Virus record (IMG/VR): IMGVR_UViG_3300048032_000879
Coordinates: 1-27,405 of that record
From: a virus
Length of the DNA stretch: 27,405 nt
Strand: one strand, 5' to 3'
The notes below the pieces were generated by a model that saw only the letters and a list, made by a program, of their open reading frames with translations, was not told the origin of the DNA and ran no database searches. Shown here one piece after another: positions 7,426-27,404 of this stretch. Position numbers and translations under genes: made by a program. Numbering within the stretch: the first letter of the stretch is position 1; every line of letters begins with the position of its first letter.

Positions 7426-8057
7426 TGGAAGACTTACTAAGATTTAAATTTGATCAAAAATATATCATCTTTGACACAGAGACTGAAGGTTTAAACCTTG
7501 TTTCATCTAAGCCTTGGCAACTTGCTTGGATTGAAGCCACTGGGAAAAAGATTACAAAAAAACAAAATAGATTCCTTAAATGGGACGAGCTTAATGTATC
7601 AGAAGAGGCTGCCAAGATTACAGGCTTTGATAAAAAAGACTACCTATCTAAAGCAGAAGATCCTGCTGTAGTGTTTAAAGAGTTCATGAACTTAATAAGT
7701 GATGACAATATCATCGTTGTAGGTCAGAACATTCTTGGCTATGACTTATATATGCTTGGGGTTATAGCCCGTAATTTAAATGTAAAAATAGATTACTCTT
7801 TTTGTAAGCGATGCTTCGATACAAAAGCTATTGCTGCAGCTTTAGCCAAAGGTAACAAAACTCCCGACAAAGATGATTTTATATCCTGGCAACTAAGATA
7901 TCTAAATTACAGAGAAAGAGGATTAAAGACAAATCAAAAGTTCTTGTTAGAGCATTATGAGATTGACTTTGATGAAAAAAAGCTACATGATGCTTTATAC
8001 GATATAGAAAAGAACTTTGAAATATTTCAAAAACAATTATGGGAATTAGAAATTTAA
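7425..8057 (+). CDS. DnaQ-like 3'-5' proofreading exonuclease (DEDDh)
   Basis: This is the probable proofreading subunit of the phage polymerase III. The five DEDDh residues are all present: Asp17 and Glu19 in IIFDTETEG (Exo I), Asp107 in VGQNILGYDLYML (Exo II), and His188 and Asp193 in LHDALYDI (Exo III). The length of 210 residues suits a single exonuclease domain without the C-terminal clamp and polymerase-binding tail of E. coli epsilon. It starts with TAATG coupling to the PHP-like gene behind an AAGGAGG site, and its end overlaps the polymerase start by 19 bases. Tight packing with the polymerase and the PHP-like gene supports the assignment. An RNase T or oligoribonuclease-like role is less likely in this context. 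Confidence 0.9.
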   Translation: MEDLLRFKFDQKYIIFDTETEGLNLVSSKPWQLAWIEATGKKITKKQNRFLKWDELNVSEEAAKITGFDKKDYLSKAEDPAVVFKEFMNLISDDNIIVVGQNILGYDLYMLGVIARNLNVKIDYSFCKRCFDTKAIAAALAKGNKTPDKDDFISWQLRYLNYRERGLKTNQKFLLEHYEIDFDEKKLHDALYDIEKNFEIFQKQLWELEI

Positions 8058-10615
8058 ATCCTCTCAAAAACCCAATGCCTCCAGGCGTCCGCCTGCCAGA
8101 GATTGACGTAGAGAAGCGTTTCTACCTTGAACTGGGTATTGACCCTAAATCTTCGAACTACGACCTTTTGAGGGCATTATGCCTCCGTGGAGTACAACAG
8201 AGAGGTATTGATGGGCTAGATAACAAAAAAGAATACTATGATCGTGTAAAAATGGAGCTTTCTATCCTAAAAGAACTAGGATTTATCGACTATATACTTT
8301 TAAATTGGGATGTTCTGAACTTTTGCCACGAAAATGAGATACCCACTGGCCCAGGTCGTGGATCTGCGGCTGGATCTCTAGTTCTTTACTTACTACGCGT
8401 TACAAACGTAGACCCAATCAAATATGACCTTTTCTTTGAGCGTTTCGTCTCCAAAAGTCGAGCAAAAAAGACTATTGTAGATAGCATCACCTACCTTGAT
8501 GGGTCTCTACTTGCCGACGTAGATAACGATATTTCCTATGATCGTCGCCAAGAAGTAATTAAATATATTGAGGAGCAGCACAAGGGTAGAACTTGTAAAA
8601 TTTTGACTCTGAACACTCTGAGTAGCAAATTATGTGTAAAGGAGTGCGGTAAAATAGTTGGGGCAATGTCTGAAGATGAAGTAAATCAGATAAGTTCAGT
8701 CATCCCCAAGCAGTTCGGCAAGGTAGCCAAACTAGACCAAGCCGTCGAAGAGAGCGACAAATTCAAAGAATTTGCGGATAAAAACACAAAAATATTTAAA
8801 ATTGCAAAAAAATTAGAAGGATTAAACAAAAATACAGGAGTTCACCCATCTGGCATCGCTATTAGTTTCTACAATATTGAAGAAATTATGCCGATGCAAA
8901 AAACAAACGACGGCAACTTAATATCTGCCTACGACATGAACGACGTTGCGTCTTTGACTGTTAAGTTTGATATTCTTGGACTTAGAACCCTTTCCGTTGT
9001 AAGTGATACTTGCAAACAGTTGGGTATAAATATCGAAGATATAGATGTCGGACTCCCAGAAATATATGAAAACTTCAAATTCATTGAGGCACCAAAGGGT
9101 TTGTTCCAGATTGAAGCGGATACAAACTTTAAGGTCTGTAAAAAAATCGCTCCTAAAAACCTGGAGGAGTTGTCTGCTGTGGTTGCGATTGCTCGCCCTG
9201 GTGCACTTGACTATCTGGATGTATATGCTGACTATGCAAGTACATCTAGATTCCAGTCAGTTAATGAATTCTTTGACGATATCCTCTCTTATACTGGCGG
9301 TATCCCCTTATATCAAGAGCAGTTAATGAAGATGGCTGTTAAGGTCGGATTTACTCTTGATGAGTCAGAACAGCTTCGCAGAATTGTGGGTAAAAAGAAG
9401 GTCGATCAAATGCCCGCTTGGAAAGCTAAGATCGAGCAAAAGATCGAAGAAAGAAATTTAGATAAAGAAGTCGGGGAAGTTTTGTGGAAGGTCGCAGAAG
9501 ATTCGGCCAACTACTCGTTTAACAAATCGCACTCAATTAGTTATGCTATTCTGGCAGCAATTACGACTTACTTAAAGTTTAAGCATCCACAAGAGTTCTT
9601 TTTGTCCTTGCTTAAAATGACAAAGCATGAGCCAGACTCTCATGCGGAGATTGCTCTGATAAATCAAGAGCTTTGCTTGTTCGACATGAAACTCCTTCCA
9701 CCAGATCTTTCTAAGTCTGACATTAATTTCGGTATAGAAGGTCGTAACATTAGGTTTGGAGTGAATAGTATCAAAGGGGTTTCAGAGAAAACTCTAGAGA
9801 ATTTAGTTGACTTTAGAAAAGCTCAAGAAGTTACTCAAAATAAATATGATATTTTTGTTACAGCTAAACAGTGCGGTCTCAATATCGGTGTTTTATCTGG
9901 CCTTGTGCAAGGAGGCATGATGGATTCTTTTTGTGATTCAGATTCAAAAATACCAAATCGCTGTCGATTGGTATTAGAGTCTCAAGCTTTCAATATTCTA
10001 ACAGAAAGAGAAAAACGCAACGTTGTCCATCTAGGCGAAAAGTTCAATTATGATGTATTAAATACCATTCATTCTGTAATGAAGGATTCTTTGATTGCGG
10101 ACGATGGAAAGGTCATTATGAAACCTTCGCGCTTTGAAACCTTTAAGAAAAAATATTCCTCCTATAGAAAAATTTATGATAAGAACAAAGATCATTTAAA
10201 ATTTGCAAATTGGTTTTTTGAACGTAAATATTTAGGCTACAGCCATTCCACAAAAATCAAAAATGTATTTGAAAACAGCGCAGATATGTTTGACAGTATA
10301 GAACTTAAATCTTTAGCCAATAATGACAGAGTTAAATTTGTTGGAGTCGTTACGGATTGTATATCTCGGACAAGTGCAGCGGGAAACAAATATATGAGAG
10401 TTGAGATACAAGACGATTTTGGTAGAGTTAATTTTATGCTTATGAACAATAGGCGAGCCGCTACTCTAGACAACTATTTAAATAATGGAGGCAAAAAGCC
10501 AAAAGAAGAACAAATCGTTTTCGTTTATGGAAGCAAGGGTGATGATATTATTTTTGGAGACAAAATCACCATATTGGACGAAAAAATTTACACCAAGTTA
10601 TCAGAAATAAAATAA
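8039..10615 (+). CDS. dnaE: DNA polymerase III alpha core (DnaE-type) lacking the PHP domain
   Basis: This is the C-family replicative polymerase of the phage. It begins just where bacterial DnaE leaves its PHP domain; that domain is encoded separately at 6748. IPTGPGRGSAAGSLVLYLLR (about 101-120) is the nucleotide-binding signature. LADVDNDIS (Asp160, 162, 164) aligns with the catalytic PDFDVDF, and VKFDILGLRTLSVV supplies the third aspartate (Asp331). GVHPSGIAI, GLFQIEA, IARPGAL and FNKSHSISYAILAAITTYLK are further DnaE motifs. An OB fold lies near the C-terminus (VKFVGVVTDCISRTSAAGNK). The stretch before the catalytic aspartates is about ten residues longer than usual. At 858 residues it is shorter than the roughly 1,160 of E. 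coli DnaE. Catalytic residues look intact. Confidence 0.94.
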   Translation: MGIRNLNPLKNPMPPGVRLPEIDVEKRFYLELGIDPKSSNYDLLRALCLRGVQQRGIDGLDNKKEYYDRVKMELSILKELGFIDYILLNWDVLNFCHENEIPTGPGRGSAAGSLVLYLLRVTNVDPIKYDLFFERFVSKSRAKKTIVDSITYLDGSLLADVDNDISYDRRQEVIKYIEEQHKGRTCKILTLNTLSSKLCVKECGKIVGAMSEDEVNQISSVIPKQFGKVAKLDQAVEESDKFKEFADKNTKIFKIAKKLEGLNKNTGVHPSGIAISFYNIEEIMPMQKTNDGNLISAYDMNDVASLTVKFDILGLRTLSVVSDTCKQLGINIEDIDVGLPEIYENFKFIEAPKGLFQIEADTNFKVCKKIAPKNLEELSAVVAIARPGALDYLDVYADYASTSRFQSVNEFFDDILSYTGGIPLYQEQLMKMAVKVGFTLDESEQLRRIVGKKKVDQMPAWKAKIEQKIEERNLDKEVGEVLWKVAEDSANYSFNKSHSISYAILAAITTYLKFKHPQEFFLSLLKMTKHEPDSHAEIALINQELCLFDMKLLPPDLSKSDINFGIEGRNIRFGVNSIKGVSEKTLENLVDFRKAQEVTQNKYDIFVTAKQCGLNIGVLSGLVQGGMMDSFCDSDSKIPNRCRLVLESQAFNILTEREKRNVVHLGEKFNYDVLNTIHSVMKDSLIADDGKVIMKPSRFETFKKKYSSYRKIYDKNKDHLKFANWFFERKYLGYSHSTKIKNVFENSADMFDSIELKSLANNDRVKFVGVVTDCISRTSAAGNKYMRVEIQDDFGRVNFMLMNNRRAATLDNYLNNGGKKPKEEQIVFVYGSKGDDIIFGDKITILDEKIYTKLSEIK

Positions 10616-12419: not shown

Positions 12420-12881
12420 ATGAGACAGCATGATATTTACAAACCTAATTCGTATAATTCTGGATGCGCCTTTTCCTTTAAAATTTTAGAAAAAGATAAA
12501 GAAGGCAATCAGCAAAAACCTTCACTTCTAGTTCAATCCATCAAGCAAGCAAGCTGGGACGCAAACAAGAGATCGGGCTCTTTTAGTGCAAACGCGAAAG
12601 ATCCAGAAAAAAATATTTACTTTAAATTATCCGAGAACGAAGTCGGTGGCGTATTGAATGCAATTGAGAACTATACAGAATTTTCCGCCTACCATAGCTA
12701 TAATGACGACAAAACTCAAATTTCCTTTAAACCTTACACGAAGAAGGACGGCAAAAAAGCCTTCTCCTTGAGCGTGGTAAAAAACTCAACTCTCAAATTT
12801 GGAATGGGTGTAGAAATAGCGGAAGCTAGAACGCTTAAAGCCTTCTTTGATTTATTTTTATTTAAGTACTTCAGCTACTAA
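12420..12881 (+). CDS. Putative single-stranded DNA-binding protein (PC4/Whirly-like pattern)
   Basis: This 153-residue protein alternates short beta strands with one terminal helix, the pattern of PC4/Whirly-type single-strand DNA-binding folds. SGSFSANAKDPEKNIYFKLS is followed by a helix-like NEVGGVLNAIENY. After that come YHSYNDDKTQISFKPY, FSLSVVKN, and the final helix VEIAEARTLKAFFDLFLF. Related-looking proteins occur in replication modules of other marine phages. No OB-fold SSB is otherwise visible in this window, which supports the role by elimination. It opens a new transcription unit after a terminator and ends in a TAATG overlap with the glycosyltransferase. The assignment is inference from pattern and context; a structure prediction would settle it. 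Confidence 0.5.
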   Translation: MRQHDIYKPNSYNSGCAFSFKILEKDKEGNQQKPSLLVQSIKQASWDANKRSGSFSANAKDPEKNIYFKLSENEVGGVLNAIENYTEFSAYHSYNDDKTQISFKPYTKKDGKKAFSLSVVKNSTLKFGMGVEIAEARTLKAFFDLFLFKYFSY

Positions 12882-14569
12882 TGAAGCGGATACTCTTCCA
12901 TTCAAACTCTTCAAAAGCTTTTACGGGTTTCGGCAAAAATGCTAAAAATATACTTCGTTACCTTTATAAAACTAAGAAATACGAAATTATTGAGTTTGCT
13001 AACGGCTTACCATGGGATCACCCGTCTTTAAAATTAAGACCTTGGAAAACTCAAGGATCATTGCCGAACAACCCACAAGCTGTAAAAGCTTTAAACAGCG
13101 ATCCACAAAAAGCTCGTATTGCTGGTTATGGCGGGCAAATGATAGACGACGCAATCAAAGAATACAAACCAGACCTCTATCTCGGTGTTGAGGATATTTG
13201 GGCTTTCACGGACTACTGGAAAAAGCCTTGGTGGGACAAAATCAATAACATGATTTGGACTACTCTAGATAGTCAACCTATATTGCCCCAGGCAGTAGAG
13301 GCCGCCCCCAAAACAAAACATTTTTATAGCTGGGCTTCTTTCGCTGAAAGAGACTTAAAAGCAATGGGGCATGATAACGTCGGCACTCTGCATGGAAGCG
13401 TAGAAGCGGAAGACTTCTACAGCCTTACGAAAGAAAGAAAAAAAGAGTTAAGAAAAAAGTTCAACCTTTCTGATGAGTTTATAGTTGGGTTTGTTTTTAG
13501 GAATCAACTTCGAAAGAGTGTCCCTAATCTAATGGAGGGCTTCAAAATATTTAAAAAAGAATGCCCAAATGCCAAATTACTTCTTCATACACATTGGTCT
13601 GAAGGTTGGGATATACCAAGACTTATTGAAGAAAAGAGCCTAAATAAAGAAGATATTTTGACTACTTATTATTGCTCTGATTGCGGCGAATACGAAGTTC
13701 GCCCATTTACAGGTCAAGAACAAAAGTGTCGTTTTTGTGGTTCAGAAAAATCTTTAAATACGACTAATATAAAAGCAGGGGTCGACGAAGAGCAGCTCAA
13801 CGAAATTTATAATCTTATGGATGTTTACTGTCACCCATTCACAAGTGGTGGTATGGAAATACCAATCTTCGAAGCTAAAATGACCGAGCTAATTACTTTA
13901 GTAACAAATTATTCTTGCGGAGAAGATTCATGTACGACGGAATCGGGTAGTTTTCCCCTTGATTGGTCAGAATACAGAGAACCAGGAACTCAATTTATTA
14001 AAGCCTCTACCTATCCATCCAGCATTGCTAAACAATTAAAAAAAGTTTGGCAAATGAATAAAGAAAAAGTGGCTCAGATGGGCAGAAGAGCCCGACAATG
14101 GACTATTGATAATTATTCTACAGAATCTGTAGGCAAAAAACTTGAATCAATTATAGACGCCATGCCAGATATTGATTATGATTTTGATTGGGGAAACGGA
14201 CAAAAGAAAACCACAAACCTAGAGGACTTGTTAGATGATGGGGATAGGATCGCAGTTGTCATGCCAGCGTCCGCCATAGATGTTTTATCCATAAATTCTC
14301 TTATTGACAACCTCAACAGCCTTTATCCATCCCATGATATCTATGTGTTCACAGCGCCAAAATTCTTTGATTACATCGAAGATCATCCATTAGTACATAA
14401 AGTCTTGCCTTATTCAGAAGAGATAGATAATTTACATCTCTTAGAGGGTTCGGGAAATCACAAAGGATTTTTCGATATAGCATTTCTGCCTCATTACGGC
14501 ACCCAACGCTTTCACAACTACCATCACAATGGTATAGATAAAACACAGTTCGAATTATATAAAAATTAA
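12881..14569 (+). CDS. GT4-type glycosyltransferase with inserted zinc ribbon and the N-half of a GT9-like domain
   Basis: Residues 1 to about 420 look like a GT-B fold GT4 glycosyltransferase: ILFHSNSSKAFTGFGKNAKN at the start, FVFRNQLRKSVPNLMEGF at the donor-domain opening, and SGGMEIPIFEAKM in place of the usual EX7E motif, whose first Glu is replaced. A CxxC-x14-CxxC zinc-ribbon-like insertion lies at Cys265, 268, 283 and 286. From about residue 455 a second domain begins, DRIAVVMPASAIDVLSINSL, which matches the N-terminal half of GT9 (heptosyltransferase-like) enzymes. It breaks off at a TAA at 14567 just where the acceptor half should lead into the donor half. The next ORF continues in the same frame. 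The sugar and acceptor are unknown; the phage GDP-mannose dehydratase suggests a deoxy-sugar. Confidence 0.82.
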   Translation: MKRILFHSNSSKAFTGFGKNAKNILRYLYKTKKYEIIEFANGLPWDHPSLKLRPWKTQGSLPNNPQAVKALNSDPQKARIAGYGGQMIDDAIKEYKPDLYLGVEDIWAFTDYWKKPWWDKINNMIWTTLDSQPILPQAVEAAPKTKHFYSWASFAERDLKAMGHDNVGTLHGSVEAEDFYSLTKERKKELRKKFNLSDEFIVGFVFRNQLRKSVPNLMEGFKIFKKECPNAKLLLHTHWSEGWDIPRLIEEKSLNKEDILTTYYCSDCGEYEVRPFTGQEQKCRFCGSEKSLNTTNIKAGVDEEQLNEIYNLMDVYCHPFTSGGMEIPIFEAKMTELITLVTNYSCGEDSCTTESGSFPLDWSEYREPGTQFIKASTYPSSIAKQLKKVWQMNKEKVAQMGRRARQWTIDNYSTESVGKKLESIIDAMPDIDYDFDWGNGQKKTTNLEDLLDDGDRIAVVMPASAIDVLSINSLIDNLNSLYPSHDIYVFTAPKFFDYIEDHPLVHKVLPYSEEIDNLHLLEGSGNHKGFFDIAFLPHYGTQRFHNYHHNGIDKTQFELYKN

Positions 14570-17513: not shown

Positions 17514-20500
17514 TTATTTATAAAACTTTTCAATTTCTAAATTAACTTGATCTATTGATATGCCCGAAGGGTTAGTTAGATTAAGGGAAAAGGTTTGATT
17601 GCCATAATTTTGCCAAATAGATTTTCTCTTCTTGTAAGAAGTTTTTGTTTCACTAGTTTCTGAGGAGCTTAAATCCAAACTCAGGACATCATTAATGTCT
17701 AAGCTCCTTTGGGCACCAGATCCGCTGTAAGAGTAGGAAGAGTCTAATATGACGTTATACCCTAATTCTCTACCATCCGAGTCAAATTCGCTAAAATTGT
17801 AGCTCTGAGAGCCATTAGAGTAATATTGTCCAGATAAATTGCCATCAAACTGAGCAAAATACACTGAAACCAAAGATTGATTAAGTTGTTGGGTGATTTG
17901 AGAAAAAGGCACTTGCAGGGAAGCGGGCTCTTCTTCTGCCTTAGTTATGGAACCAGTCACCGTGTCAGACCACTTGCCCGTTCCTATAATATCATGAGCC
18001 AAAAATTTATAAGTAACGTCGTTGTATGTTTTTATTTCAGAATATTGAACTGGTAGTATAATTTTTTCTTTATGAGATAAGAGGTTCTCTGTTTTTAGTT
18101 TTTTGAAAGTTTGCCCGTCATATGACGAATAAACATCTACCTTCTTGGAATCCAAGCTGCCTTCTAGATTTAAATTAAATACGACTTTGTCCGTGAACTC
18201 TTCAATTGATTCGCAGTTTAAACTAGGAGGATTGTTTTTTACTGAATACATGCAAGTGTCTTTAAGCTGATTGCTTGTGTTATATAAATAAAATCCTAAA
18301 GTATAAAATCTTTGATCGTCTAAAACTTCTTGTTTTCTTAATTGACTTAAATTAAATTTTGAAGATCTCCACCTTCCAACTAAATCTTCCACATATTGAT
18401 CATCTTTATCAAATAATTTAATATTTAAGTAAGGTGATTGGGGCGAGTTAAAAGAAATAACTCTATCGTCATCAGACCTCATGGGTATGGTAAAAATATC
18501 ATTTTCTGTAATGGACTCTCCTGTTTTGTATTTGATAGAATCATTTGTAATCCCTGATTGGTTGATTTCTTTACCTAATAAAATATTTCCAAAAGAAATA
18601 TCTGTGCAAAAATCAGAGGAGTCAACAGTAAAACTTTTCGAGGGCGAATCAACTGACTCTGGATTTCTCATAGATGTCACAATTACATCATATAAGCCTA
18701 CTTGAGCAATATTATGAAACTCAAAGTTTGTTATTGGAGACGCTAACCTGGAGTCCTTTAAAAATTCTTTGTATGTGTAAGACCCATTTGGATATGTTAA
18801 AGACACCCTGTATTTAGTCTCTGATCCATTTGGGTTTCCATAAATAGCGCCAGTTAAATATAAATTACCATCTTGCGATACGATGCCAGTCGAAAAGCTG
18901 TCTGGGGGAGTTGGTCTACTTATTGTATTATTAGGTAGCCCAATATTATAGCCTTCTTCAATATCTTGATAGTCTTCTAAGTCAACTGCATCAAATTTTT
19001 CTTTGTTATACTGTAAACCATTTATAGCATACGTATTATCCTCTTGTTGCTTTATAGTAACGACTTTATAAAATTCTCCGACACCATTATTTAATTCTAG
19101 ATTAAACGGCGACCCATTTTTAATTTTGTCTCCATATAGCTCAGCACTTTTATCTATTTTTAAATCTAATTTAATGGACGCGGAGTTGTTAGTTAGAGAT
19201 ATACCAGTAATTTCGCTTTTAAATACAAATTTTTCATATGCACTGCCTATTTTATCTAAAGGCAAATGTCCAGAATATATATCCCCATCCTCTCCAAAGC
19301 TATAATCTTGATCAAATTTTGCAATATCATAAAGAGTTTTTATTTCTGTTTGTCCTGTATTTTTGTATAAGTAAATAGCACTATCTTGACCAGTTTTAAT
19401 ATTTCCTGTATTTAAAGAATTTTCTATCTCTACATAAAACTCATCTCGAGAATAACTAGAATTAAGAATTTTACCATAATTTATCTCAAAGTTTTTCAAT
19501 TCATCATCGACTCTTATTATATCGCCAGGAGCTAAAATCAAAGCTTGATGGTCAGTTACAAATTCGACAGTTTCTGTTTCTAGTTTATTACTCAATAAAA
19601 TATATTTACCCAATCTTCTTGCTTGCGATCTTGAGGTAGCTCCAATGCCATTTTGAGTATTTGTTATTAGACCATAGTTTCTAATTCTATCTTCGTCCTC
19701 GACATACTCCTTTTTAATTTTATAAAAATCATTTTTATCCGCATAGAACACCTCTACTCTAGTAAATCTAGATTGCTTTAAAACATCTCCGTAACCAAAC
19801 ACTCCATCTAAGACATTTGAATTATTAAAGATGGCCATTTCGTCCTTTGGCCTGTCTATTGAAAAATTAAATGATCCCCCACCCCAGTAAGTAACGCACC
19901 TAAAAATAGAGGCCATGTTTCCAATAACACTAAATGCATTTTGTTTTTCGCTCAAAAGTATATTGCAAGAAAATCGTGGCTCAAGGCCGCCCCTGTCGTC
20001 AGAGACACCATCAAAACAACCATCTTCATCAACTCCATCGCAATATCTAGCTATTTCATAAAGTTCAAAAATGTCTATGTCTTCTAAGTCGTCTATTTGA
20101 TTTCTGATTCCATAAACAGGATTCACCATTAAATCGTATAATATCCAAGCGGGATTATCAGACCAAGCATATTTAAATGTGCCGTCCCATTCTCCGACAT
20201 AAACTTGTGCTTTGTTTTTTCCGAATTGAAAGGTTGTGTCTTCTACAGTAGATGAACTTCCTATAATATCTCCATGAGCGCCATTGAATTTATCTTTAAA
20301 TGCGCTACCCAATCTTTCGGTAGATATTACAGTCCCATCAAAAAAATGTAGCAGCTGATTATTCTTTTTAATTTTGAGGTCTGCAATTTGGGTTTCATTT
20401 ACCAATCTTGACGACTCGTTAGTGTCTGCTCCCACAAGAAAACTTTTGTCACTAGTGGGATCATAAACAAAACTTGGCCTAGACATTAAGTTATTTGCAG

Positions 20501-22898
20501 AACCAACAACAGATCCGCCTACAGATACCGATAAACTAACAAGAGTACCCACAGACTTAAAAGAAACTTCAAAAACATCAGAGGCTGAGTATGCTGAAAT
20601 ATCAACGCCGACATCAGTAAAAGAACTAGTACCATTACTATTCACGGCAAGCATATATATATGAGACGATTTTTGATATATAGCCACTCTGCCAGGCGTA
20701 TTACTATTTGCTCCATCTACATCAATAAGATACTGAGATGAAGCGCTTGTAACAATTGATCCAAATTTAACCTTTAAAGATATTTCATAATTATCGGTCC
20801 CCACTTCTATTTTTTCAGGAATTTTTATATGAGTAGACCCATTAAATTGAAAAATATCTCTACTCCCGTATTGTTTAGAACTTTCTATGAATCTTTTGTC
20901 TCTTCCATCCGCTTTGAGGGGAACATAGTTGGAGGGTATTAATATTTTCTTTAATTTTGCGTCGTAAGTTCTCATAGGGGGTTGAGAAAAACTTCGGGCA
21001 TCTAATGATGTTCCGACAACAGACGAGAATGGGTAATTAAATTTTGAGTCTATTATTTCTGTAACTGCATAAAGAGAGCACTCTCTCTGTATGAGAGCAG
21101 ATTCTGTTTCGAAACTAGTTTTTGAAATTTTTATTTGTCTTTTGACGTCTACCCATGAATCGTTCGGGTATAAAATTTGATCTTGATTTAAACCAAAATC
21201 ACTTATCATCTGTTGCGTTATCCCATCGATATCAGAAATTTTTAAATTTTTTAGTTGTCTGCTTTTAGGTAAACTTATTTCGTCATAAGGGGCATTTATA
21301 TATCCGCCTTCGACTATTCCTTGATAACCCGCCCCGATTACTGATGTAAAACTATTATTATTTAAAATAATAAATTTAGGATCTATACCCCTTGCCAAAA
21401 GAGATTCTAGACTTTCTCCAATATAATTGCCTTCGAAACCAATTTCAAATTCAAAAGTTATACCAGCAAATTCGGTTCTGCCTAATTGAGCATCAACTGA
21501 TTGCTCGGTATCCCTTAACAAGGAAATATTTAAAATAGGAGAAACATAATCAACTTCGTTTTGATGAATTATATGAGTATAACCATATCCTTCGTGCTCT
21601 TGCGATATGTTATCATTCCAAGCTGCAAAATCTGCTCCATATGTTCCGTCTTGTCTATAATCTTTGTTGCCAGCGCCAGCCTTAAGTATAGTTCTAGAAT
21701 TACCAAATTGATCAGTAATAGTTCTGGGGCTTACAGCGGCAGTATTGGAGACAACGCTTAGATCAAATGGTCCTAATAATTTTTGTTGAACTGGGTAGTC
21801 TCTAATTATCTTTTGAAAATTGTTTAGAGGCTTTTGAAATTCATCTCCTTTAGTGTGCTCTATTTTTATTTTATTAAAATTAAATCTTAAGTTATTATCT
21901 ATATCTACTGCAAAATTTATTTTTTTTCCTATTGTTTCTCCTCTGGCTGGGCTCGCTTGTCTATCTGACACATTCAAATATTCAACAAATGAGTTTCCCG
22001 TACCGATCACATCGTATCCGTTATCTCTGCCATTTTCTATTGCCGCAGTATCACTAGCTTCGGTAATAAACTTTCCAGTTAAAAACTCTCCTGCAGCACC
22101 AGTAGCATTTTCATCACCTATAAAAAAGAACATTATGCCTCCGCCAACAAAATTGTCCACTTCGTAGAAATCAAAAACAGAATCTGTTCCAGCAAATATG
22201 TCTGTAGTATCAAAGCTGGGAGCAAAAGCAAATATGTTTTCTGGTAGTTTTATTATTTGCTCTCCGTTGTCTACTTTCACACATCTTTCGTGAGTCCCGT
22301 CACCGACAAAAAATTTCGGACTAATTGGGCTTTTTGAATTAGAGAACATCCGACTATTTGCGTCAGTTAGAACTCCATCTAAATTAAATTGAATAATCCC
22401 TAGTTGATTTGTCAAAGATTCATATTCGTCAAAATTAGAAAACAACTCAGAAAATTCGTTCGTTAAGTTATCAATGCCAGACCGCGCTATTGTCGCTAAA
22501 CCCTGAGAGGTATCGGTGCCAGCTATAAAACCTGATAGGTTTGATTTAATATTGGTTAATGCTGTTTCTATAGAAGATAGGGACGCTCTGTCTACTAACT
22601 GTATATCTGAAGAGCCAAAAGGGGCTACTTTAACTGTTCTTGATGTATTTTCTTTTACAGGGGTCTCGTTAAAGTAAACAGCTCCGAAAATATCTACCCC
22701 TTCCGCTCTCCTGCCGTCGCTCAGGCAAAGTCCCTCAATCGGACCTTCAGATAAGATATCAAGAGATTTAATAGTTGCGGAGCTTCTGTATACATCGGTT
22801 CTTTCTGGAGGCACAAGATAGACGTTTTCGGCGTTTCCGCCAGACTTGCCCTTACCCTTAATAGCACTGTTTTTTAATTTATTTTTTAAAACTTTCAT
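17514..22898 (-). CDS. Tail tip attachment protein J-like with LamG/concanavalin-like insertion
   Basis: This is a host-recognition tail-tip protein of the lambda gpJ (TipJ) family, 1,794 residues. Near the N-terminus IKSLDILSEGPIEG (residues 43-56) is the gpJ signature, preceded by a Gly/Lys-rich leader. The central tail domain begins with YAWSDNPAWILYDLMVNPVY (NPAW at 915-918) and continues through TSRSQARRLGKYILLSNKLE and LAPGDIIRVDDE (about 1125). A module starting with NIGLPNN (about 1315) and FN3-like C-terminal strands follow. Inserted at about 682-857 is a LamG/concanavalin-like domain (FNGSTHIKIP ... FEVSFKSVG ... FFDGTVIS). There is no signal peptide, as expected for an assembled virion protein. 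Start choice follows from GGGAG-like bases, which sit unusually close, and from the 21-base gap after the upstream paralogue. The tail assignment is firm; its receptor is unknown. Confidence 0.92.
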   Translation of the reverse strand: MKVLKNKLKNSAIKGKGKSGGNAENVYLVPPERTDVYRSSATIKSLDILSEGPIEGLCLSDGRRAEGVDIFGAVYFNETPVKENTSRTVKVAPFGSSDIQLVDRASLSSIETALTNIKSNLSGFIAGTDTSQGLATIARSGIDNLTNEFSELFSNFDEYESLTNQLGIIQFNLDGVLTDANSRMFSNSKSPISPKFFVGDGTHERCVKVDNGEQIIKLPENIFAFAPSFDTTDIFAGTDSVFDFYEVDNFVGGGIMFFFIGDENATGAAGEFLTGKFITEASDTAAIENGRDNGYDVIGTGNSFVEYLNVSDRQASPARGETIGKKINFAVDIDNNLRFNFNKIKIEHTKGDEFQKPLNNFQKIIRDYPVQQKLLGPFDLSVVSNTAAVSPRTITDQFGNSRTILKAGAGNKDYRQDGTYGADFAAWNDNISQEHEGYGYTHIIHQNEVDYVSPILNISLLRDTEQSVDAQLGRTEFAGITFEFEIGFEGNYIGESLESLLARGIDPKFIILNNNSFTSVIGAGYQGIVEGGYINAPYDEISLPKSRQLKNLKISDIDGITQQMISDFGLNQDQILYPNDSWVDVKRQIKISKTSFETESALIQRECSLYAVTEIIDSKFNYPFSSVVGTSLDARSFSQPPMRTYDAKLKKILIPSNYVPLKADGRDKRFIESSKQYGSRDIFQFNGSTHIKIPEKIEVGTDNYEISLKVKFGSIVTSASSQYLIDVDGANSNTPGRVAIYQKSSHIYMLAVNSNGTSSFTDVGVDISAYSASDVFEVSFKSVGTLVSLSVSVGGSVVGSANNLMSRPSFVYDPTSDKSFLVGADTNESSRLVNETQIADLKIKKNNQLLHFFDGTVISTERLGSAFKDKFNGAHGDIIGSSSTVEDTTFQFGKNKAQVYVGEWDGTFKYAWSDNPAWILYDLMVNPVYGIRNQIDDLEDIDIFELYEIARYCDGVDEDGCFDGVSDDRGGLEPRFSCNILLSEKQNAFSVIGNMASIFRCVTYWGGGSFNFSIDRPKDEMAIFNNSNVLDGVFGYGDVLKQSRFTRVEVFYADKNDFYKIKKEYVEDEDRIRNYGLITNTQNGIGATSRSQARRLGKYILLSNKLETETVEFVTDHQALILAPGDIIRVDDELKNFEINYGKILNSSYSRDEFYVEIENSLNTGNIKTGQDSAIYLYKNTGQTEIKTLYDIAKFDQDYSFGEDGDIYSGHLPLDKIGSAYEKFVFKSEITGISLTNNSASIKLDLKIDKSAELYGDKIKNGSPFNLELNNGVGEFYKVVTIKQQEDNTYAINGLQYNKEKFDAVDLEDYQDIEEGYNIGLPNNTISRPTPPDSFSTGIVSQDGNLYLTGAIYGNPNGSETKYRVSLTYPNGSYTYKEFLKDSRLASPITNFEFHNIAQVGLYDVIVTSMRNPESVDSPSKSFTVDSSDFCTDISFGNILLGKEINQSGITNDSIKYKTGESITENDIFTIPMRSDDDRVISFNSPQSPYLNIKLFDKDDQYVEDLVGRWRSSKFNLSQLRKQEVLDDQRFYTLGFYLYNTSNQLKDTCMYSVKNNPPSLNCESIEEFTDKVVFNLNLEGSLDSKKVDVYSSYDGQTFKKLKTENLLSHKEKIILPVQYSEIKTYNDVTYKFLAHDIIGTGKWSDTVTGSITKAEEEPASLQVPFSQITQQLNQSLVSVYFAQFDGNLSGQYYSNGSQSYNFSEFDSDGRELGYNVILDSSYSYSGSGAQRSLDINDVLSLDLSSSETSETKTSYKKRKSIWQNYGNQTFSLNLTNPSGISIDQVNLEIEKFYK
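20330..20855 (-). other. LamG/concanavalin-like domain inserted in the first tail-tip protein
   Basis: The segment encodes about 175 residues with a FNGSTHIKIP opening, ISLKVKFG, YLIDVDG, GRVAIYQK, SFLVGADTN and HFFDGTVIS strands. This is the jelly-roll order of LamG-type lectin domains. It precedes the shared AWSDNPAW core and has no counterpart in the visible part of the neighbouring paralogue, so it is a probable carbohydrate-binding insert. Confidence 0.65.
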
Positions 22899-22919
22899 AC
22901 TCCCATCAACCTTAATAGA

Positions 22920-25900
22920 TTACACTAGTTTTTTAATCTTTAGATCGAAACCCTCAAATAAACCACTTTCACCAGAAACTCTCACATTGTGGTATTCTTC
23001 TGATAAGTTCATGATTTTTTTACTAGATAAAAAACCTTCATTTTGAAATTTTATAGAAATAGCACTACTTTTCGTATTAGAAACTAATTCAAGATTTAAA
23101 GATGCCGATTGGCCACTCAACAACGAACTTGAAAATTCCACCAGGCAATCTTGTCCATTTCCGTAAAAACCGCTTTGATTATTTGATGATTCGTAGCTGG
23201 AGAAGTCATTAGATATTACATCCTCTGAATAAATCGAGTAAATTCCGATTATACTATTATTATACTTTTGAAATAATGATTCTTTTTCTGGAATGAAACC
23301 TTCACAATTTAAGGCTTGACCAGTTCCATAAAAATCTCTTGGGACAAAATTGAAGTCTATCTTTTGCTCTTTAGGTAACTTTGATATTTCAAAATCTTGA
23401 AGCCTAAAGGTTTGCAGTCTGCTTTGATTCTCTATCGCAAATGTTTTGATAGTGTTTTCTCCAGTTATCATATCTATGGATATGAGTTTTTCGCTTTCCT
23501 CTACTTCGGCAACGATACCAGCAGTAAGACCATCGCTTACAAAATTAACGTTTGTTATTTTCGGAGCTTCATCTTTTAGAATCTTTGATTTTTCTGAAAT
23601 GACTGTTCCGTTGTAGGTTAATTGTGCTTTTATTTCCCTTTCTCTTGATGAAGAATTTGCTAACTCTTTGATTTGTTGAAAAGAAATCTCAAAATCGGTC
23701 ATTTTAGAATTCTCAACATAAGTTTTGCCTTCAATAATTAGATTAATTCTGCAATTAGAATCAAATAAGTTTAAGTTATCCCCATACACGTTTCTTGTTC
23801 TTATTTTTACATTTAATAAATCTTGATTGACCAATAAGTCTATATCATTTATAAAAGGATAAGTGCTTACTTTATCTTTCGTTTTGGATATTACAAATTC
23901 TTTATTAATAAATGTGCTGGACTCTGGATTTCTTAAGGATTTTACATTTAGTTCATAATTTCCAACGGCAGCCAAATTATAAAAACCAAAATTAGTTAAA
24001 GGCTCATTTAAAGATGACAAAGTATTAGTGTTTTTTTCAATTTCTTTTTCTAAAACCCTTCCATTAGGATATAACAAAGATAATCTGTATTCGGTTTCCG
24101 ATCCGTTGGGCTCTCCAGTAATCATTCCAGTCAAGAATGGCGACCCAGCGTCGTCTAGACCAGTTATAAACCCCACACCAGAAGGTTCTGGCGGTCTAAT
24201 AACTTCATTATTTGGTAATCCTATGTTAAATTCAGGTTCTTCTGGCTCAATCATACTCGAAAAAGTGTCTATTGCATCGAATTTGTCAGAAAAATATTCC
24301 TTCGCTTCCACCTCATATAAATTTTGTTCTTTTTCTAAAATGTTAAGTACTCTATATTCTTTATACCCGTCTCCTGTTGGTGCTAAAGGTCTAACCATAG
24401 GGTTATTCACAAAAAGCTCTTTTATACTTTTTGAATTTTCTATATCTTTTTTAATAAAAAGATTGATATAATTTCCGCTAGTTTCAAAGCCAGTCACAGT
24501 TAGATAATTTGATGCGGTATTAGCCTCTTCTTTTATTTTTGAAGAAAAGTTTTTAAACTGAGTCTCTTTGTAAAGTTCACTCACATCTCCAGGAAATAGG
24601 TTAGTAATTTCTAAATTATTTTCTATAGAAGTATCTATGTTGAAAGTATCATTGTAAAGAAACGAGTCGTGGTTTTTTAAAGTAATGCTATTTTTGAGAA
24701 AAGAATAAGCTGTAGATGGTGTATAACCCCTCTGGTAGTAATCGGCGACATAATCTTGTTTATAAACGAATTGTTTTCTCCAATTGTGATGCTGGCTCCA
24801 TTCTTTTTTATCCGAAGATTCTTCAAATTGCAAAGATTCAAAAGGATAACTGCCTGGTACAGAATCATCGTGATAAGTGTTGCTAAAAATTAAAGTGTTT
24901 CCATTTTGCAAAAATTCCAATGACATTTTTTCGACGCTGTTGTTCCCAACCTTTTTTATAAAATTGGTACCTTCGCTCCAGTTTTCCCTAAAAAATCTAC
25001 CCGTATAACTTATAGGATATATTATAAAATTATTTGGTTTATTGCCGATCACCTCATATTGATGGAGTACGTAAGGAACGTCAAATTTGTCAAGCTTCAA
25101 TCTAATTTGAGAGTCTCTTTGATTTGTGCCTTGTACAAAAACGTCAGCCCAATCGCTTTCTAGGCCTACATTAGTCCCAGTTAACTCTTTATATCTAATC
25201 TGCCATCTTGAACCGTATGAGTCTTCTACACTTTGAGTATAAATAAAAGCTGGTTTTCCATCACTAGTAAGTCGCATATCAAACCTTCGTATTTGTTCAT
25301 TTGTGTATTGTGTGTCTTCGGCAGCCACTACATGTCTGCTCCAAAGACTTGGATTTGTGTCATCAGATCCTCCTGGACAGTGATATAATAAGTATTCTCC
25401 AGTTTTTTGGTCTTCTACTGGTTCTGAATTTACAAAAGTTAAAATATATTTATCATTATTAGAATTAATTCTAATTATGCTCTTGTTTTGCTGATTTGAT
25501 TCAGCAGCAGTTTCTGCTGGATCATTATATAAATTGTCTAATCGCGTAAATTGCCAATGTCCACTATTAGTAAAATCATTTCCAGTTAACTTAGAAAAAG
25601 TAAGCGCAAGCGGAATACTTGAGTCGTTGTATCGAGAATTCTCAACAATAGATAAGTATGGGTAATTATAAATATCAAAAGCCAAATTGCTTTCAAATTC
25701 AGTATCGGTAGTTTGATAAGAAGAAACTCCCTGATCAAGAAAAACTTTATCAAAACCGTCATCAGTCTTTTTAAATACGTCGCAGACGGAGTTTCCTTGA
25801 GTAAGAACGTGAGGAACTCCGTCGTTATCCAAACATAAATCATAGTGTATTAACGTATCATTTCTCGGGTTTGCTTCAACTGTATTTGTGACTTCAAAAT

Positions 25901-27404
25901 CGTTTGTGTTGCTTTGATTAAAAGTTATTTCAGAAAATATAAATGACTTGGCGGTCGTGAAAGCACCACTTACGGTATTTGAAACCGCATATACTTTTTC
26001 AGTGTGTTCTATCTCGCTCACTTCATAGAATGCTTTTTGATTCTTAAAAGATTTTAATTCATCATTAATCCCTATAACATCTCCAGGGTTTAAAAATAAA
26101 GCTTTACCATCGGTAAGAAATTTTATTTTTTCTGTCTCGTATGATTTATTATATAAATAATGTTTTCCAAACCTTCTAGCTTGAGACCTAGTTGTGAAAG
26201 TAGTAAAATCTAATTTGGCCTCATTTTTTCCATTTTTTCTTATTAAATCTTCGTCCTCAATAAATTCAACTTTTTCTTTAAAAGCTTCATATTTATCTAA
26301 GTACGGGACTTTAATTACGCTAGCTCTAGATGATTTAGGTGCGTCTGAATAAGAAAAATTTCCATCCATAACATCGTAGTTATTAAAATACCAAGAGGGT
26401 TCTTTAGGCATATCTGCCCATATATTATACTTACCATCTTTGATATAAACTGCGCCGAAAAACATGTCACAAATCGACGATATAACTTCGAAAGCGTTAA
26501 AATCATTTTCCAAAAGAAAATTACAACTTAATCTTGGTTCCGTTCTTCCTCTTTCGTCGTAGATCGGTAAATAAAAACCATCATCATCAATAGAATCAAA
26601 ATACTTAGCGACTTCAAAAAAGTTAAAAACATTTATATCTTTAAAATCGTCTAAAACGGTTCCCGCTCCATATATTGGATTAGTTAATAAGTCGTAAATA
26701 ATCCAGGCTGGATTATCCGACCAAGCCTTTTTCATAACTCCAAACCAATTTTTAGTTTCAAGAACTCTTGTTGATTTTTGAAATTGTTTTATTGAAAATG
26801 TGCCCACTCTGTTTGGTAAAGAAAGGTGTCGATCTATCGCAACTGCGACATTTTTCCCATCAAAAGCTATATTTTCAAAATTCTGTTGAGTATTAAGTTC
26901 AAAGTCGTTAAACGGATTATATTTTTCAGTCACCCATTCATTTGTATGCGGACGCCTTTTAAAAACATAGATATGACCGTGAGTATTAGGGTCCGTAGTT
27001 TCTTCATCCGTTGAAGTTGTCACAACAACAGGTTCATTGTTTTCATCTAACTTTAAATTAGCGTATTCGGCAAAAAATCTTGCTTCACTATTAATTTTAG
27101 AATAAACATCTTTGGGCTGTCCATCTGCGTCTACTTGCTTAAGAATATCAGATTGAAATTGTTTTATAAATTCATATTTTTTGCCATTGTATCTAAATAA
27201 AATAATTACGCCTGTGTCGGCCCCGTCGAAGTATCTAAAGTTATTTCCGTCATAATTTAGTCCAGCCATCATTAACCAATCTCCATCGATTTTAATTCTA
27301 GGAGGCATCCCTGCGGCGCCGTAAATTTCAAGCGCGTAATCTGGCGCGAGAACAATTTCATCCAAACGCCATCCGTTTACTAAGTCTTTTTTATAAACGT
27401 AGAC
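22920..27404 (-). CDS. Second, paralogous tail-tip J-like protein with beta-propeller insertion, cut by the window edge
   Basis: The frame is open to the right edge (VYVYKKDLVNGWR precedes the TTG-encoded residue at 27365), so the start lies outside the window and at least 1,494 residues are visible. The shared core begins with KAWSDNPAWIIYDLLTNPIY at about 26740-26680, continues through TTRSQARRFGKHYLYNKSYE and LNPGDVIGINDE (about 26060-26100), and the C-terminal module FNIGLPNNEVIRPPEPSG is at about 24220. Between them, at about 24880-25840, six blade-like repeats suggest a beta-propeller. The first visible segment (27404 to about 26780) also has propeller-like strands (VIILFRYNGKKYEFIKQF, HIYVFKRR). 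A gpJ N-terminus with SEGPIEG is expected to the right. It lies 21 bases upstream of its paralogue and is probably cotranscribed with it. Confidence 0.9.
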   Translation of the reverse strand, partial: VYVYKKDLVNGWRLDEIVLAPDYALEIYGAAGMPPRIKIDGDWLMMAGLNYDGNNFRYFDGADTGVIILFRYNGKKYEFIKQFQSDILKQVDADGQPKDVYSKINSEARFFAEYANLKLDENNEPVVVTTSTDEETTDPNTHGHIYVFKRRPHTNEWVTEKYNPFNDFELNTQQNFENIAFDGKNVAVAIDRHLSLPNRVGTFSIKQFQKSTRVLETKNWFGVMKKAWSDNPAWIIYDLLTNPIYGAGTVLDDFKDINVFNFFEVAKYFDSIDDDGFYLPIYDERGRTEPRLSCNFLLENDFNAFEVISSICDMFFGAVYIKDGKYNIWADMPKEPSWYFNNYDVMDGNFSYSDAPKSSRASVIKVPYLDKYEAFKEKVEFIEDEDLIRKNGKNEAKLDFTTFTTRSQARRFGKHYLYNKSYETEKIKFLTDGKALFLNPGDVIGINDELKSFKNQKAFYEVSEIEHTEKVYAVSNTVSGAFTTAKSFIFSEITFNQSNTNDFEVTNTVEANPRNDTLIHYDLCLDNDGVPHVLTQGNSVCDVFKKTDDGFDKVFLDQGVSSYQTTDTEFESNLAFDIYNYPYLSIVENSRYNDSSIPLALTFSKLTGNDFTNSGHWQFTRLDNLYNDPAETAAESNQQNKSIIRINSNNDKYILTFVNSEPVEDQKTGEYLLYHCPGGSDDTNPSLWSRHVVAAEDTQYTNEQIRRFDMRLTSDGKPAFIYTQSVEDSYGSRWQIRYKELTGTNVGLESDWADVFVQGTNQRDSQIRLKLDKFDVPYVLHQYEVIGNKPNNFIIYPISYTGRFFRENWSEGTNFIKKVGNNSVEKMSLEFLQNGNTLIFSNTYHDDSVPGSYPFESLQFEESSDKKEWSQHHNWRKQFVYKQDYVADYYQRGYTPSTAYSFLKNSITLKNHDSFLYNDTFNIDTSIENNLEITNLFPGDVSELYKETQFKNFSSKIKEEANTASNYLTVTGFETSGNYINLFIKKDIENSKSIKELFVNNPMVRPLAPTGDGYKEYRVLNILEKEQNLYEVEAKEYFSDKFDAIDTFSSMIEPEEPEFNIGLPNNEVIRPPEPSGVGFITGLDDAGSPFLTGMITGEPNGSETEYRLSLLYPNGRVLEKEIEKNTNTLSSLNEPLTNFGFYNLAAVGNYELNVKSLRNPESSTFINKEFVISKTKDKVSTYPFINDIDLLVNQDLLNVKIRTRNVYGDNLNLFDSNCRINLIIEGKTYVENSKMTDFEISFQQIKELANSSSREREIKAQLTYNGTVISEKSKILKDEAPKITNVNFVSDGLTAGIVAEVEESEKLISIDMITGENTIKTFAIENQSRLQTFRLQDFEISKLPKEQKIDFNFVPRDFYGTGQALNCEGFIPEKESLFQKYNNSIIGIYSIYSEDVISNDFSSYESSNNQSGFYGNGQDCLVEFSSSLLSGQSASLNLELVSNTKSSAISIKFQNEGFLSSKKIMNLSEEYHNVRVSGESGLFEGFDLKIKKLV
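24870..25850 (-). repeat. Six degenerate propeller-blade repeats in the second tail-tip protein
   Basis: The repeats share a pattern of a strand with Asp/Asn, Gly, Pro, then a hydrophobic strand: CLDNDGVPHVLTQ, AFDIYNYPYLSIVE, RINSNNDKYILTFVN, LTSDGKPAFIYTQ, KLDKFDVPYVLHQY and EFLQNGNTLIFSN. They recur every 53-68 residues and sit inside the gpJ core, where the paralogue has only a short stretch. Confidence 0.6.

Follow-up and report, generated by a model that had tools for sequence, protein, structure and literature searches.

Tandem lambda gpJ-type tail-tip genes and doubled gpI genes in a family of uncultured marine phages

Each siphovirus virion is commonly assumed to carry a single gpJ trimer as its hub. 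Why, then, should one phage genome carry two adjacent genes of the gpJ type, and could both supply a tail tip? We explored this question in a 27,405-base virus record (the window), whose right end lies inside a gene. No close relative of the phage was found among cultured phages or bacterial genomes, its DnaE-like and glycosyltransferase-like proteins matching distant records only. The former, a bacterial-type DNA polymerase III alpha subunit (window 8039-10615), shares less than 35% identity with the highest-ranking phage records among the matches listed. The latter (12881-14569) matches two phage records at 22% identity, and similar genes adjoin the tip genes in loci L014 and L018.

Two gpJ-type genes and a split docking segment

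The two genes lie on the minus strand and are numbered in their order along the coding strand, gpJ-1 being the right-hand and gpJ-2 the left-hand gene (Table 1). Sequence comparison identifies their products as paralogous lambda gpJ-type tail-tip proteins, as the initial annotation had read them. Both match the gpJ family phrog_31 and the Pfam domain Phage-tail_3. By BLASTP they are 45% identical over a core of 248 residues (E 9e-64), far beyond chance, and again 45% identical over 157 residues around the IGLPNN motif (E 1e-30). The earlier count of 13 identities among the first 16 residues of the AWSDNPAW core is correct (AWSDNPAWILYDLMVN and AWSDNPAWIIYDLLTN). Of the SRSQARR segment, also described as shared, RSQARR is common to both proteins, while the full form differs, TSRSQARR in one and TTRSQARR in the other.

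The N-terminus of gpJ-1 lies beyond the window, and it had been pointed out that a right-hand gene without the tail-docking domain would be an accessory protein and not a second tip. The sequence to the right was found in two contigs of the same phage, L003, in which both gpJ proteins are 100% identical to those of the window and which extends 4.9 kb further, and L165, which reaches further upstream than L003. The docking segment is present, as a separate ORF (L003:295-1917) just upstream of the long gpJ-1 ORF. It aligns with the beginning of lambda gpJ (E 8e-6) and is 41-45% identical to the N-terminal segment of gpJ-2 (40% for gpJ-2 residues 1-84 against the segment from L005). This ORF has 85 residues in the relative L005, with a gpJ-1 59% identical to that of the window. 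In the window's phage it has 540, the 85 being extended by three Ig-like domains and then some 220 further residues.

Table 1. Features of the two gpJ genes, in window coordinates.
Feature	Position	Strand	Evidence and remarks
gpJ-2 (left), complete lambda gpJ-type tail-tip protein	17514..22898	-	1794 aa; phrog_31 4.9e-107; PF13550 1.2e-14; J2 clade in tree
gpJ-1 (right)	22920..27404	-	last 1494 aa of a 2497-aa ORF, open at contig end; full ORF L003:1931-9424; phrog_31 8.4e-67
gpJ-2 residues 1-84, N-terminal segment (HDII-insertion domain region)	22647..22898	-	matches start of lambda gpJ, BLASTP E 6e-4
gpJ-2 core, AWSDNPAW to PGDIIRVDDE, contains Phage-tail_3	19467..20213	-	Pfam, BLASTP
gpJ-1 core, AWSDNPAW to PGDVIGINDE, contains Phage-tail_3	26034..26771	-	PF13550 3.3e-16; BLASTP
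gpJ-2 region with IGLPNN, FNIII-like position	18624..19070	-	45% identity to gpJ-1
gpJ-1 region with IGLPNN, FNIII-like position	23889..24356	-	BLASTP to gpJ-2
gpJ-2 pre-core insert, ~221 aa	20220..20882	-	LamG-like by eye only
End of gpJ-1 pre-core insert, predicted beta-propeller	26751..27404	-	AlphaFold2 model
gpJ-1 second insert (~550 aa) after PGD strand; first ~340 aa a predicted lectin-like propeller	24402..26042	-	AlphaFold2 model

The segment and the body of gpJ-1 form a single chain in L024, L018, L009, L087, L035 and L015, the 2,578-residue protein of L024 reading straight across the break point of L003 and L005. Two ORFs are found in L003, L005 and L161, and their frames overlap in L161. 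Read from the alignment, the equivalent place of the split would be near the HDII-insertion/FNIII-A junction. A frameshift joining the two ORFs was ruled out for L005 and L003 because the second frame opens only past the stop of the first, and an assembly error because the split recurs in several contigs and in diverged phages. Other splits of gpJ into ORFs occur as well, one of them at the pre-core site in L011. Members of another marine clade (L021, L025, L029, L030, L036 and L056) also have gpJ split across ORFs, with about 2 kb from gpI to the N-terminal ORF.

Inserts around the conserved core

The inserts of the two proteins had been placed at different sites. In the window's phage both copies have a pre-core insert at the same site, that of gpJ-1 (about 680 residues) lying mostly past the right end of the window; what stands of the original description is the further insert after the PGD strand of gpJ-1. 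We compared the distances between conserved anchors across relatives. Every gpJ-2 measured has a pre-core insert, of 216-462 residues. Most gpJ-1 proteins lack one, with a pre-core gap of only 11-21 residues, and have a long region before HDII instead (about 890-1,420 residues), and inserts of about 680 residues before the core and 550 after the PGD strand occur in gpJ-1 of L003, L005 and L024 only. Thus, both gpJ copies use the pre-core site in this subclade, and the anchor distances bear out the idea of modular change of inserts after duplication.

The AlphaFold2 model of the gpJ-1 pre-core insert, of modest confidence (mean pLDDT 58), aligns with beta-propellers with a VIA-align Z of up to 25.4 over 304 residues. 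The second-insert model is most similar to Photorhabdus sugar-binding lectins (Z of 18.8 over 281 residues), with a mean pLDDT of 45 that is better over residues ~65-340; past ~340 residues it is not usefully modeled. Both gpJ-1 inserts are predicted to form beta-propellers, the match being clear and the models of modest confidence, and the propeller originally suspected after the PGD strand is among them. A common fold is no demonstration of function. The LamG label given to the gpJ-2 insert found no confirmation: Pfam and PDB sequence and profile searches returned no LamG match above noise, and comparison with a LamG-looking stretch in the gpL of another phage lent it no support.

The gene block and the history of its duplications

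Within the tail gene block, gpK and gpI precede the gpJ genes (L005, L018, L165). The order in the window's phage (L165) is gpL, gpK, gpI1, gpI2, the N-terminal gpJ ORF, the long gpJ-1 ORF and gpJ-2, so that single gpL and gpK genes stand beside two gpI and two gpJ; the block L-K-I1-I2-J1-J2 is complete in L018. gpI1 and gpI2 match the gpI family phrog_32 (2e-14 and 1.2e-28) and lambda gpI (2e-6 and 4e-10). Tandem duplication of gpJ, as first described, holds, and the duplicated module is larger than was claimed, gpI being doubled too. Upstream of gpL (L165:3455-6981), three minus-strand repeated leucine-rich proteins, BspA-like by eye and with a similar N-terminal start, are possible extra adhesins.

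Comparison with the lambda tail tip (PMC10721106, PMC11101478) reveals the same order, L-K-I-J, and gpJ N-terminal, HDII and core regions that align. Unlike lambda, which has one gpI and one gpJ, these phages carry both in duplicate; large inserts occupy as many as three sites, and the split in gpJ-1 appears to fall near a domain junction.

How common is this arrangement? IMG/VR was scanned, keeping the best 80 loci per query, and among these, a pair of gpJ cores separated by about 5.5 to 6.7 kb was found in L003, L009, L010, L015, L018, L019, L024, L035, L087 and L171. For copy numbers we counted loci in which gpK, gpI and gpJ follow one another in that order and the sequence continues for at least 0.9 kb past the first gpJ; 71 were left after removal of near-copies. 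Six have two gpI and two gpJ, three have two gpI and one gpJ, none has one gpI and two gpJ, and 62 have one of each (Fisher 6e-7, shared descent not removed). Two gpI genes thus accompany six of six double-gpJ loci with a full upstream region, versus 3 of 65 single-gpJ loci. Under a stricter count of loci with 6.6 kb of sequence beyond the first gpJ core, two of the five loci with two gpI have two gpJ (Fisher 0.0097).

Duplication of gpI alone is no evidence of two tips, because two gpI with one gpJ also occurs, in L014, L069 and L189 and, as gpI-like genes, in 11 of 80 bacterial-genome loci. The lineages with gpI duplicated alone include L014, L069, L196/L205 and Pseudomonas and Oxalobacter prophages; these prophages resemble the marine phages in their tandem gpI genes upstream of gpJ and differ in having a single gpJ. 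Individual loci with two gpI-like genes and one gpJ are L237, L239-L242, L244, L246, L256, L290 and L306 (Pseudomonas/Oxalobacter prophages) and L227 (an archaeal-labeled MAG contig). L069 has three gpI-like genes in a row (L069:2247-6501), as ORFs of 437-512 residues with long extensions past the gpI match, and then a single gpJ. A second gpJ was seen in none of the 80 bacterial-genome loci. In the phage collection the gpJ-1 core matched 1,828 places in 1,826 records, and therefore a second gpJ place exists in at most two. A search of an open-access library, which holds few subscription papers, turned up no description of tandem gpJ.

In a tree of gpJ cores (68 rows), J1 (98/88) and J2 (99/93) are sister clades. 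One old duplication of the tail-tip gene gave rise to two clades that have been kept in parallel, which upholds the duplication originally proposed. The gpI tree places all I2 sequences in one clade together with L011 (95/92) and the I1 rows, weakly, on one side of a branch (74/67); the L196/L205 copies (Pseudomonas-type) belong to neither the I1 nor the I2 marine clade. L011, which has one gpI and one gpJ, groups with both J2 and I2, as expected if gpI/gpJ pairs are lost together. Alternative placements of its gpJ were rejected (p-AU 0.029 and 0.044); for its gpI, placement with I1 or outside both clades was not rejected (p-AU 0.22, 0.25). L033/L307 have a recent, separate J-I-J tandem, and their nearest kin are single K-I-J. 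Dedicated gpI/gpJ pairing is thus supported rather than proven, because gpI also duplicates alone in several lineages.

Both gpJ genes, both gpI genes and the split-off segment are under purifying selection. Comparing the window's phage with L005 gives a dN/dS of 0.06 for the gpJ-1 core, 0.09 for the split-off 85 residues, 0.17 for gpJ-2, 0.19 for gpI1 and 0.11 for gpI2, and the two gpJ-1 inserts evolve fastest (0.28 and 0.23), all rough values because dS is near or above 1.

Alternative tips and competing readings

The lambda tip contains six copies of gpM and three copies each of gpL, gpI and gpJ, with gpI forming a trimeric plug joined to gpJ via three beta-sheet augmentations (PMC10721106, PMC11101478) and closing the tube until gpJ has bound the receptor (PMC11101478). 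Because of this joint, a gpJ that has diverged plausibly requires a gpI to match, and two gpI with two gpJ beside one gpL suggests two interchangeable tip-plug units. We propose, at about an even chance, that gpJ-1 and gpJ-2 are two functional lambda-type tip hubs, each with a plug dedicated to it, and that they most likely serve as alternative tips. The one block, with its single gpL, would supply both hubs and both plugs, and each gpI/gpJ pair would build a trimeric tip of its own on the single gpL ring, so that different virions would bear different receptor-binding heads. We infer that both gpJ proteins assemble, with I1 serving J1 and I2 serving J2, and that the tips are alternative rather than mixed. 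gpJ-1 would be the variable tip, bearing the propellers in the window's phage and with its docking segment made as a separate polypeptide through the gene split, and gpJ-2 the more constant tip, its one pre-core insert kept in all relatives. A fuller version is more tentative, and we hold it at somewhat under even: gpI1/gpJ1 and gpI2/gpJ2 would be two complete, separately evolving tip-plug pairs for one tail, giving from one genome particles with two receptor heads and two DNA-release triggers.

Other phages also have more than one receptor-binding protein, such as Ackermannviridae (PMC11414711) and the T5-like DT57C (PMC4728585), but they vary side spikes or fibers, whereas here the central hub and the plug protein are doubled. 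The hubs of Salmonella phage Jersey and Alishewanella phage LSH1 (PMC13243795) likewise have variable domains near chain breaks, but each is a single hub protein with no tandem copy.

gpJ-1 and gpJ-2 could instead be mixed in one trimer, or both occupy fixed places in each virion, giving a hetero-assembled tip with several kinds of binding domain. The single gpL for two gpJ, their common gene block and the keeping of both N-terminal segments are what such a tip would lead one to expect, but cores only 45% identical after an old duplication, and two separate gpI lineages that suggest two complexes, are indirect grounds for holding it rather unlikely. It is also doubtful, if compatible with any of the other readings, that gpI and gpJ were duplicated independently, in events that happen to co-occur in one clade, and form no dedicated pairs: gpI has been duplicated alone in the lineages listed above, but no locus with full upstream sequence has one gpI and two gpJ, L033 has a J-I-J block, and the single gpI and single gpJ that L011 retains belong to the same side. 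That one gpJ is the hub and the other an accessory or side-fiber protein reusing the gpJ scaffold, as the separate docking ORF of gpJ-1 might hint, is improbable given the single chain in six relatives, the purifying selection on the split segment (dN/dS 0.09) and the duplication of gpI alongside gpJ. Least of all does gpJ-1 look like a decaying duplicate, a very remote prospect even with two ORFs in L003, L005 and L161, for the split is common to diverged phages, each half is open and evolves under purifying selection, and the second runs for 2,497 codons without a stop.

This uncultured marine phage family thus has two full versions of the host-recognizing tail-tip protein and two of the plug protein inside it, with which a single phage may be capable of making tips of two kinds. 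Should the hub and its plug be stably doubled, the coupling between receptor choice and genome release would become open to testing, and a single genome would have a natural way of reaching two host ranges.
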